Source: Lampris incognitus
Lineage: Eukaryota; Chordata; Actinopteri; Lampriformes; Lampridae
DNA length: 64,000 nucleotides
Direction of reading: 5' to 3'
Assembly (NCBI RefSeq): GCF_029633865.1
Contig: NC_079219.1
Coordinates: forward strand, 50,357,008-50,421,007
This document shows, piece by piece, positions 48,514-53,200 of this stretch (within the stretch, counting starts at the first letter, position 1; each line of letters starts with the position of its first letter). A program made the position numbers and the translations under genes. The notes beneath the pieces were generated by a model. The model ran no database searches. It saw nothing but the letters and a program-made list of their open reading frames with translations, and was not told the origin of the DNA.

Positions 48514-50239
48514 CCCACTGCCCATCCTCCTCCCTGTCCCTGGTTGCCTGTTTTGTCGTTTACATGTAAATCTGAATAATAATATTGCTATTGTGAGGTG
48601 CTGGCTGGGCCTTAAAGCAGCCGGCAGAGAATAACAGCTAATAATTTGTTTGTATGATTGATTTGTTCCTTTTGTTACACACCAGTTTGGGATTTTGTTA
48701 GGGCACGAGGTATACATACTTCCTTCTTTTTCTCCTTCTTCTTCACCCTGTGATGATGATGATGATGATGGTTGCTGTAGTGTCTCAGTGCCATGGGGGC
48801 TGTGCGGAGGTGGACTCCATGACGGAGGCGGTGCTGGGGAAGAGATTCCTGCTCGGCTGCATCTCATGTAAGAGGAGAGAGGAGGTCATCGCTCACACCA
48901 CCGTGGATTGGCACTTCAAACCGGAGGGAGAGGAGGATTTTCGGCATGTAAGTATTCCACTCCTCCCAGATCGTTGGCAAGTGTATGCTGTAGAGGAACG
49001 CTCGCCCCCACCCCCCACCCCCCCACACACACACACATCCTGGGACTCCTGGGTTGCACATATTGATATAAAGAGTCACCATATAGGTCATTAACGTACC
49101 AGATGAATTAAATTACTACATACTGCATATAGTGTGTACTCTCTTCCAGCACACTGTTAGTATGTGAGTACACTGTACAAGTTCTGTTCGAACATACTAC
49201 TTCATCATAGAGGGGTCCTCCCTATAGTCCCCAGGTCCTATAGTCCCCGGGTCCTATGTTCCCCGCTTTGTATGAGACCGGGGAATATCGGACCTTTTTG
49301 TATACAGAGGGCCCTATATTCCCCACTTTTCCCCAAAAGGGTCCTATGTTCCCCGTTTTGTATGTGCAGGGAAACATGGGACCTTTCTTTATAGAAAGGG
49401 TCCTATGTTCCCCTAGGGCCCCCGGGGAACATAGGACCCTATTTATAAAGAAAGGTCTCATGTTCCCCGGTCAGCAGGTTTGACGCTGTTTGGCGCAAAA
49501 AGTGCATTTTCAATAATGCATTATTTAGGGCAGATTATTAAGAAGACAATGAATCATACTATTTCTATTTTTATATCACAAAAACGAATTCACAAAGTCC
49601 AGGTTGGCTAAAGTATGTGGAAACTTTCGACACTAAACCAATTTCAACTTATTAGGCTATAGCCTATATTTGGGCGCATAACCCACCCCGGTAGTTCTCT
49701 GATATTTATGCGTGAAATGTGTCACTTATCAAGGAAAATGCGCCTCGCCGAGTAGGTGAGCTGGCTCGTCTGTGTCTGAATGTAATATAGTAAGCCTGTG
49801 CTCCTTGGGCAATTGTACCCGGGCGTAGCTCAGTCGGTAGAGCTCTCGCCTATGGATCGCAAGGTCGTGAGTTCGATCCCGGGTGCCGCCAACTCAGCGT
49901 ATGAGTAGCACATTGTGCGAGAAGTGCTGGGAGCTGAGGAGAGGTGTTGTGTTCTGTCCTCAGCAGTCCATCTCCCAGAGGTCTAGCGCATTGTACCAGG
50001 GATAGACTCCTGCGTAAGCTGGCTGATATCGACAATAGGCCAATTCTGACCCACTTCTTCTATGTTCGCTAGAAAGCCGTCGTTCCCATCATAACCACAC
50101 CAGCTTATTGGGAAAAGCATCTGACAGATATTAGCTAGAAACCATCTGCTCAGTAAGGCCCTTTAAGCATCATAATTGTAATGATAATAATAATAATAAT
50201 AATAACATAATAATAATAATAATAATAATAATAATAGCC

Positions 50240-50275
<36 letters not shown>

Positions 50276-53200
50276 TATAGCCTTATATTAGAAATGCTAA
50301 AAATTGGATAATTGAAATATTTATAATTATAAAGTGGGCTAATATGGTAATAACAATAAAATAATAACAATATCTGCCTGGTCTCTTAAGATTCTAAGAT
50401 GCTGTATGCTACAGAAATAACGGGACCTAGGCCTACGCTAATGAATACGCCTTTTTGACAAAATATGAATGAAAGGCTAATCAACAACGCTAAAGCTGAA
50501 TCACAAAACACATATTGCTCGAAAAATAATTTATAAATAGCCAAATGCACACATGATTTCGAGTTTGGAAATATTTAAAACTTGTCGTGGATGTGTGGTC
50601 ATCTGCACGCAAGTTTCCTGGCGTTCTAAACCACATGATCAAAGTTCACCAATGTCTAAACCGCCCGCCAACTTGCAACAGTTTGCAACAATCGGTTGTT
50701 ATCGGCGATAACTCGTGGACTCACTGTCATGTGCTTACTAGCCTACAAGAAGACAAACAATGGCGATAGTTATGGATGGTGATCGAGGGGGCAAAGTGTT
50801 GGTACATGAGAACTTCAGATATCAGAAGCACCGCACCAATCAAGACACCATTAGATGGAGGTGCTGGAGGTGGAACTGTAGAGTGCCACTGATCACAAAT
50901 AGATTTGAAGTGGAGGACGTGGATGCTAACATTATTGTGCGCGATGTTGGGGAACACGTGCATCCCCCTGACGGAGAAATGGTGCACCGTGCAGGATTCC
51001 GACAGGGGGTGATTGCAGAAGTTGCGAGGGAGCCAACAGTCCCAATCAGAAGGATCTATAATGCGCAAAGGGTCCTGCAGCGTCGGCAACGTCAAATCCA
51101 GGGTTTTAGCCCCTCTTTGTTGAGTAGCCTAATGGACTAGGACTACTCATTTTGATTTTTTGAAGAAGAAAAAAGCCTTAACGTTAGGCTAGTTAGGCCT
51201 TGGAGATTTTTATTTTAGACCATGCCTTTTCTGGGGGGCTTCTGCCATAGACCAACCCTTTTTCAGCCAAGCTTTTACTAGAAGCATTTTGTTATTAATA
51301 GCCTATTATCAGTGTTACTATTGTTAGTATTATGCCTGTAATTGCTATTTGTTATTAGGCTTCTTTTATAATTAGGCTATTATTATTATTATTATTATCA
51401 TTATTATTATTATTATTAGGCTGTTATTATTATTATTATTGATATTATTACTATTACTATTATTATTATTATTATTAAAGAAGAACATCAAAGGATGTAA
51501 GGTAGCACTTATCAAATGAAAAAAAAGACACAATTCTCTATTTTACCATTTCATTGTTTGGCATCAGTCATTAACTTGGCCGGGTGGTCTTCTTCAGAAA
51601 CCTTAATGACTGATGCCAAACAATAAAATGGTGAAATAGAGGACTGCCTCTGTTATTTTTTTACCATTTGGTGAGTGTTACCTTACATCCTTTGATGTTC
51701 GTCCTTGATTCATGTTTTTGGTTTAGCACCTCCACAAGCCTTTAGTTTTTTGAGAAGCACATATTATTATTATTATTAGGCAATTAGCCTATTGTGTAAG
51801 GTAGGCGGCCCCCGTTGATGGATACTTTGTGCTGGTCCTAAATTCCAAGTCCTGGTCTAAGTTCTCTGCCTGAAAAGTTCATTATTAAAGTCTTTTTGAA
51901 AGAAAGTCTGCCAAGTGATTTAATATGGAAAACGAACTGCAAAGTAACAAGAAAGTGGCTGAAGTGTCCAGTGCTGTGCAAACGGAACTCTGAGTGAAGG
52001 TGGAAATGGCTACTGGTTATACTGGTAGGCGGGCCTACTGCAAGACACACTTGCGTTGATTGCCGACTGTCCATGCTGAGCCGGAGAGCCAACTAACTAG
52101 GCCTACTGCAGTAAATATTGGTAAGAAATAACAATAAAGCAAATTACAGCCTCCTCTATAGGCCGAATTTGGATACGCACTCAAGGTGGCCTGCGATATA
52201 CAACAGCCAACAATGGTAATACGGCCTAATTTAATCAGCGGAGGAATAGATTGTCGTAGCCTACAACTCAGCCATGACCCCAGTTTTTATTATTTTGGAC
52301 CCGTTAAGGAAATAATTTGCAAAAAGGGTTCTAAGTTCCCCGGTTTGTTCCTCGATTGGCAACAGCGGGGAATATAGGACCCTTTATTTGGAAAAAAGGT
52401 CCTATGTTCCCCTGGAAACAGCGGGGAATATAGGACCCTTTTTCCAAAAGAGGGTTCTATGTTCCCCGGTGTCTATTGCAACCGGGATTATAGGACCTTT
52501 TTAGGGGAAAACGGGGAATATGGGACCCTTTTTTTTTCGAAAGGGTCCTATGTTCAGGACCCGGGGAATATAGGACCCGGGGACTATAGGCACGGCCCCG
52601 ATAGAGCCCTGTCACTTTCCTCTCAGCTCTTTGCCAGTTAATGACCCGGTGGGCACAAACTTCTACTGCTGTGGTGACCCACAGATTTTATTTTTATTTT
52701 TTTACGTGAAGATAAACAAGGTTTTCATCACTTTCCACTTGGCATAACGTAACGTAATACTTACCTGTAAACTGTTCCACCATTCTGCAGGTTGGGTTGC
52801 GTAACGCCCTTCACCATCGTTGGTCGTTGTCGTGACGTATCGCAGTGCATTGTGGGAGATATGAATGCCGGCGTAGTGTCCAGTGTATGCCGAAGATACA
52901 CCGAATACGTGGAAATGTCTCCGCGTGTAGTATGACGTCCGGGTATTTCTCGCGTACTATCTGATGCGTACTATGGTGTCGGACATACTCAAAACACCCG
53001 CCTACTATTTTGGGGTTACTTGTATGTGATTGCGGATGCAGCCAACGTCTCCCACCTGGGACAGACAAAGAAACAAACATCCTACCCACCACAATGTGCT
53101 GTTGACTCAGCTATAAAGAGCCGGCCATTTGATTTTTTTATTTCGATATTGTCGCGGGACTGGGTTTAGATGTTCTTATATTAAGTAGTTGGAGGCTGGG

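Follow-up and report, generated by a model that had tools for sequence, protein, structure and literature searches.

Why would a vertebrate genome carry two arrays of the same short motif, one at each end of a 3.4-kb element, with a single short open reading frame (ORF) for a FLYWCH zinc finger between them? The element lies in a window of 64,000 nucleotides of the fish Lampris incognitus (contig NC_079219.1, positions 50,357,008 to 50,421,007 of the forward strand). An initial annotation, made from the letters of the window, had suggested a link between the FLYWCH frame and the transposases of Mutator-like elements (MULEs). We think it quite probable that this is a MULE copy made non-autonomous by an internal deletion, from a family recently mobile in this genome, and that its arrays would serve as docking sites for the FLYWCH finger.

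Longer copies and the source of the FLYWCH frame

The longer copies of the element carry the argument. The genome (1.48 Gb in 537 contigs) holds at least 290 matches to the whole element, those over 3 kb (self aside) being 92-96% identical, and the genome-wide search that the initial annotation proposed found the terminus motifs and the ORF together in many copies. It had also proposed to look for longer copies with a MULE DDE domain; these are present, with the same ends and with FLYWCH N-terminal in the same frame. In one of them, L055, FLYWCH (residues 13-74, E=8.1e-8) and the MULE domain PF10551 (residues 199-296; 54.5 bits, cut-off 27.6; E=1.7e-14) share one open frame of 399 aa, and the suggested tie to MULE transposases was right. 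L064 denotes the L055 copy together with its genomic surroundings; it measures 4.83 kb, has the ends of the element and is flanked on both sides by the 8-bp target-site duplication (TSD) CATTCTAG. Joined unchanged at a predicted GTAAGT donor and a predicted TTTTTGTAG acceptor, its exons give a predicted protein of 476 aa with D196, D263 and E391, which we take to be the catalytic residues of the transposase, with C284/H287, and with the FLYWCH ligands C35, C40, H66 and H68. A search with the part of the protein beyond codon 115 listed 37 matches with the 399-aa frame, 34 of them stop-free.

The window copy lacks about 1.6 kb found in L064 (2233 to ~3828, comprising the remainder of exon 1, the intron and exon 2), and because of this its ORF consists of 115 transposase codons followed by 11 codons of 3' sequence. 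In two further copies, L024 and L025, the ORF continues past codon 115 into about 515 and about 930 additional bases. The open frame of 126 codons that had been noticed in the centre of the element is real (Table 1), with C35, C40, H66 and H68 read from the sequence as its presumed zinc ligands; Pfam finds FLYWCH only, so that the window copy does not encode the catalytic domain and is a non-autonomous member. As judged from these sequences, the lone FLYWCH ORF is the N-terminus of a transposase left behind by internal deletion, and not an independent FLYWCH gene. An independent gene or a nested insertion is rejected, because uncut copies have FLYWCH and the MULE domain in one continuous frame. 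The initial annotation had named two outcomes that should count against it, arrays and ORF not co-occurring in other copies or the ORF belonging to a nested insertion; neither materialized, longer copies with the same ends carrying FLYWCH and then MULE in frame.

The 3.4-kb deleted form now outnumbers the uncut form: at three or fewer mismatches the deletion junction has 189 genomic matches and the uncut junction 111, with none for the controls. The terminus patterns occur 438 times (left) and 370 times (right), against 3 and 0 for backward-pattern controls. Pairing of the listed exact termini (100 left ones, and 90 of the 100 right ones, namely those on contigs C1-C3 not beyond the final left one in the list) gave 57 pairs, a few of which share one end. 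The deletion junction is spanned by 24 of the 57 (19 of these 3.25-3.55 kb long) and the uncut junction by 16 (11 of these 4.7-5.0 kb long), while 17 span neither among the matches listed, the junction lists being incomplete. Over codons 1-115 the consensus sequences of the two types are one amino acid apart (H108R, a variant also present in 8 of 21 full-type sequences). Complete copies compared in pairs differ by 1-3% substitution in most windows, and by up to 6% at a TAA block, so the family moved recently.

Among solved structures, only FLYWCH1 (2rpr, E=0.0041) matched the 126-aa ORF, and the transposase exon matched 2rpr at 0.026 and three others at chance level, with no transposase among them. 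A single-sequence AlphaFold2 model of the ORF was unusable (mean predicted local distance difference test score, pLDDT, 35), and a scan of viral contigs found no relatives. Elsewhere in the genome, lower-scoring MULE-domain matches in long open frames (C12:32501510, C16:46494409, C13:48448315 and a set with 249-aa frames) apparently represent other MULE lineages or derived genes.

Ends, target-site duplications and arrays

The window copy begins with GGGGTCCTCCCTATAGTCCCC and ends with GGGGACTATAGGCACGGCCCC. The bounds first given for it, 49213..52600, were nearly right, each being one base off the best placement, and the inverted termini and the ATAGAG beside both ends are present as described (Table 1). 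The ATAGAG pair is what remains of an 8-bp TSD, six of the eight positions matching. We tested for TSDs in 21 distinct copies, all found through carrying both terminus motifs. In 14 of them an exact 8-bp TSD lies directly outside GGGG...CCCC, and in three more (L005, L025, L031) it is perfect after a one-base boundary shift, which brings the count to 17; the window copy (L001), L027, L028 and L040 are without a perfect TSD.

The arrays were scanned with the 15-mer GGTCCTATGTTCCCC at up to four mismatches. Nine units were found on the left and ten on the right, where 1000 Markov-1 sequences of the same composition per end gave means of 0.28 (maximum 3) and 0.22 (maximum 4). Units start 16-40 bp apart, the two arrays are 70-75% complementary to each other, and unit number ranges from 6 to 12 on the left and from 7 to 11 on the right in the nine copies scanned. 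The ends are thus of Foldback type, that is, long terminal inverted repeats (TIRs) in which short repeats occur in variable number. The arrays of the initial annotation, described as 8-9 units per end in alternating orientation, are therefore real, but "alternating" is only roughly right because orientation is mixed at a pitch of mostly 25-31 bp.

Table 1. Positions within the window of the element and its parts
Feature	Positions	Strand or orientation	Remarks
Whole element, non-autonomous internally deleted MULE copy	49212..52599	.	GGGG...CCCC ends, fixed by comparing 21 distinct copies
Left terminal inverted repeat	49212..49255	+	44 nt, 89% complementary to the right one
Right terminal inverted repeat	52556..52599	-	44 nt, pairs with 49212..49255
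Left ATAGAG, target-site duplication remnant	49207..49212	.	Last G overlaps the first G of the element
Right ATAGAG, 8-bp target-site duplication remnant	52601..52606	.	
Left array, 9 units of GGTCCTATGTTCCCC	49234..49468	>><>><><>	Mostly 30-bp pitch, A/T-rich spacers
Right array, 10 units of GGTCCTATGTTCCCC	52327..52593	><><><<><<	
126-aa ORF	50760..51140	+	As read from sequence, transposase exon 1 codons 1-115 plus 11 codons of former 3' noncoding region
FLYWCH zinc finger, aa 7-68	50778..50963	+	Pfam PF04500, 36.3 bits, E=6.5e-9, above cut-off
Deletion junction	51101..51104	.	2-3 shared bases at the joint

Possible roles of the arrays and of the short frame

A single 1.6-kb deletion within the transposase gene produced the 3.4-kb form. 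In the mechanism we propose, transposase from full-length copies would act in trans on the short copies, as the shared ends and the junction counts suggest. The FLYWCH finger, the obvious DNA-binding part of the protein, may dock on the numerous GGTCCTATGTTCCCC units of both arrays. With many weak 15-bp sites, specificity would come from site number; the docked units would assemble a multi-subunit synaptic complex joining the two ends, and cut-and-paste would then take place at the GGGG/CCCC tips. By analogy with the Drosophila element Galileo, the arrays would most likely serve the FLYWCH part of the transposase as a series of docking sites; in Galileo, several sites within the repeats of the long TIRs are bound by the THAP finger of the transposase (PMC3688188). 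With arrays and an N-terminal finger in the same family, a single protein and a single 15-bp site suffice to put the docking idea for Foldback-type ends to the test.

Several observations weigh against parts of this account. First, the TSD of the window copy is imperfect, and the perfect TSD of L022, one of the 17, sits in a CT microsatellite and is little informative. Second, among uncut copies L064 is the only one checked end to end; the other longer copy retrieved whole, L065, yielded neither an exon-2 acceptor nor a right terminus, and 6 of the 21 full-type sequences have a stop within the first 115 codons. Third, the deletion-junction matches are clustered in places (12 exact ones on C30 at 132613-1793366 and 5 on C18 at 1023153-1058453, several of them 17-25 kb apart), and part of the 189 are probably segmental duplicates of an element-bearing locus rather than separate insertions. 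Fourth, array units and spacers have diverged about equally among copies (1.6 versus 2.0% on the left, 2.9 versus 3.1% on the right), so that no constraint specific to the units is visible and nothing in the comparison sets them apart. Fifth, the arrays fold into strong hairpins; 49369-49468 is a nearly perfect 100-nt hairpin (-74.8 kcal/mol, z=-12.5, none of 200 shuffles as good). Sixth, divergence of the ORF is 1.1-1.3% against 1.8-3.2% in the larger noncoding blocks, where a pure passenger would predict otherwise.

The hairpins make a structural or small-RNA role a live rival. The arrays might act as DNA or RNA hairpins instead of protein docking sites, either as the cruciform of a Foldback structure or as double-stranded RNA feeding small-RNA silencing, and several array spacers are indeed A/T-rich palindromes. 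The units are not strictly alternating, however, and neighbours are often co-oriented; this is indecisive, since both roles can coexist, and on balance we consider hairpins in place of docking unlikely. We give somewhat less credence to the idea that the arrays are functionless products of slippage or gap repair, ordinary repeat turnover with only the outermost 20-40 bp required. The variable unit number and the equal divergence of units and spacers would fit such turnover, but arrays are kept at both ends in all nine scanned copies (copies chosen for the ends or the sequence of the element), and ends built of repeats with other unit sequences recur in Muta1, Tm1 and Galileo.

Docking being the role we prefer for the arrays, a further question is whether the short ORF is itself kept. 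For this we used 23 deletion-type sequences that differ from one another over the ORF and the next 60 bases, 15 of which came from a listing by protein score, a choice that favours conservation. Their private changes (21 replacing, 12 silent and 2 stop) are near the neutral expectation of about 69, 27 and 5%; the 21 full-type sequences have 39, 9 and 5. The sequences of L030, L066 and L067 show a subfamily in which W38 has become TGA and which also has F49S, I85V and R111C, and an in-frame TGA occurs in 40 of 150 scored ORF matches (out of 413 candidates), 25 of the 40 at two bit scores common to L066 and L067. This subfamily has spread, so copies without an intact finger spread too, and on this evidence intactness of the ORF is not needed for spread. 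As to the low divergence of the ORF, several single noncoding windows diverge as little (0.8-1.2%). The test of ORF conservation proposed in the initial annotation therefore gave mixed signs of purifying selection on the short ORF, private changes being near neutral and divergence somewhat low. The FLYWCH-only ORF is most likely a remnant carried along as a passenger, its product perhaps competing weakly for the sites.

It seems improbable to us that the FLYWCH-only protein is functional, occupying the arrays to repress the family or (like VANC proteins) to protect it in trans, and is kept for that purpose. The stop-free ORF in 107 of the 150 scored copies, its lower divergence than the larger noncoding blocks and the intact zinc ligands of the window copy would agree with a function, but the private changes are near neutral despite the conservation bias in the choice of 15 of the 23 sequences, and the subfamily with the broken finger has spread as well. 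More doubtful again is the idea that the deletion created a free-standing array-binding protein, produced in numbers by the short copies as a self-encoded titrating repressor or shield, and that this protein aided the rise of the short form over the full one.

Other features lie in and around the element. About 265 bp upstream, 48780-48947 (+) resembles an exon of sodium channel beta-1 (5xsy_B, E=1.2e-15), and the element probably sits in an intron of this sodium channel beta-1-like gene; a crude motif scan for additional exons of the gene found none convincing. Within the element, 51474-51709 is a 236-bp near-palindrome with nested inverted repeats (51519-51574/51603-51658 and 51474-51526/51657-51709); it is covered at 92-100% in 21 aligned copies, the uncut L064 among them, and may represent a nested foldback element of some age or else form a small-RNA hairpin. 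A tRNA-like stretch at 49821-49893 (89-100% coverage in the 21 aligned copies) contains the words TAGCTCAGTCGG and GAGTTCGATCC, which we take to resemble an A-box and a B-box; it was not called by ARAGORN or Rfam, and its fold is unremarkable. In the window as a whole, ARAGORN found no tRNA and nothing scored above Rfam gathering thresholds, six matches to Rfam microRNA families in and around the arrays and the palindrome being far under the curated scores. Inverted TAA and TTA microsatellites at 50184-50280 and 51375-51480, about 1.1 kb apart, flank the FLYWCH ORF, and in several copies the TAA block splits the match into pieces that lie about 200-217 bp apart.

A vertebrate host and the known relatives

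The main interest of the family is its host, a vertebrate, a group in which genuine MULEs have been questioned. The genome has a single RAG1 locus, whose two pieces are separated by 863 bp; RAG1 marks a jawed vertebrate, and its interruption and the match to the eel sodium channel structure 5xsy point to a teleost. Earlier surveys are divided: a 2019 survey reported limited evidence for chordate MULEs and judged vertebrate Repbase entries to be misidentified (PMC6446971), and a 2021 survey found MULEs rare in animals, with a median of 0 (PMC8277862), while teleost MULE-MuDR copies do appear in repeat surveys (PMC4746887, PMC6404401), and MULEs are described as occurring "from insects to fish" in the paper on Muta1 (PMC5225508). 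A search confined to open-licence papers, and not extended to subscription papers or Repbase, turned up no account of a vertebrate MULE whose transposase is complete. The family offers a concrete test case for this dispute, with 111 matches to the uncut junction, a MULE domain over the Pfam cut-off in many copies, FLYWCH, matching ends and 8-bp duplications.

The family shows the features of the MULE superfamily, namely a DDE domain (L055/L064), a TSD of 8 bp (8-11 bp being the range for the superfamily) and terminal inverted repeats. FLYWCH followed by MULE is the domain order that characterizes Phantom (PMC3169594), whose members are described with an N-terminal FLYWCH, then the MULE domain, and TSDs of 8-10 bp (PMC3169594, PMC6446971). 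The L055 frame has this order, and by domain order we call the family Phantom-like rather than Phantom. A table in the 2019 survey lists Phantom from Platyhelminthes, Crustacea, Arthropoda, Tunicata and an ichnovirus, and from no vertebrate (PMC6446971).

Of similar build is Tm1 of Meloidogyne, which has been assigned to Phantom; it has a 496-aa transposase with FLYWCH (residues 5-66) and MULE, TIRs of variable numbers of a motif of about 14 bp, and non-autonomous copies (PMC3169594). It differs in its mostly 9-bp TSD, its motif, its 7 exons and its nematode host, and its FLYWCH is without the final histidine where the present family has both (PMC3169594). Muta1 and Muta5 of Aedes aegypti likewise have a MULE transposase (504 aa in two exons and 554 aa in three exons, respectively), TSDs of 8-9 bp, TIRs of about 150 bp with nine subterminal repeats of 12 or 15 bp, and hundreds of derivatives with varying repeat number, and Muta1 has been classed as a type 2 Foldback element (PMC5225508). 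They differ in their insect host and in their tandem repeats, with 3-4 bp spacers in Muta1, where the present family has units of mixed orientation at a pitch of about 30 bp, and the accessible text of that report mentions no FLYWCH-only derivative (PMC5225508). Galileo, of the P superfamily, shares the long repeat-rich TIRs, but its transposase belongs to another superfamily and uses another finger, so that the likeness is an analogy of mechanism only (PMC3688188).

VANDAL21 of Arabidopsis is a MULE. Like the family described here it has a dense short motif, bound in its case by an element-encoded protein (VANC21), and its motif number changes through the formation of tandem repeats; it differs in that VANC is a separate anti-silencing protein and that its motifs have one orientation and lie in noncoding parts (PMC5735166). 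Among the plus-strand frames of more than 60 codons in L064, only the transposase exons were recognized, and no second gene, in a scan that did not include a VANC profile search. An element build with repeat-studded ends is thus already known, because Tm1, Muta1 and Muta5 share it; what is distinctive here is the mixed-orientation array at a pitch of about 30 bp, the abundant FLYWCH-only derivative, and the host.

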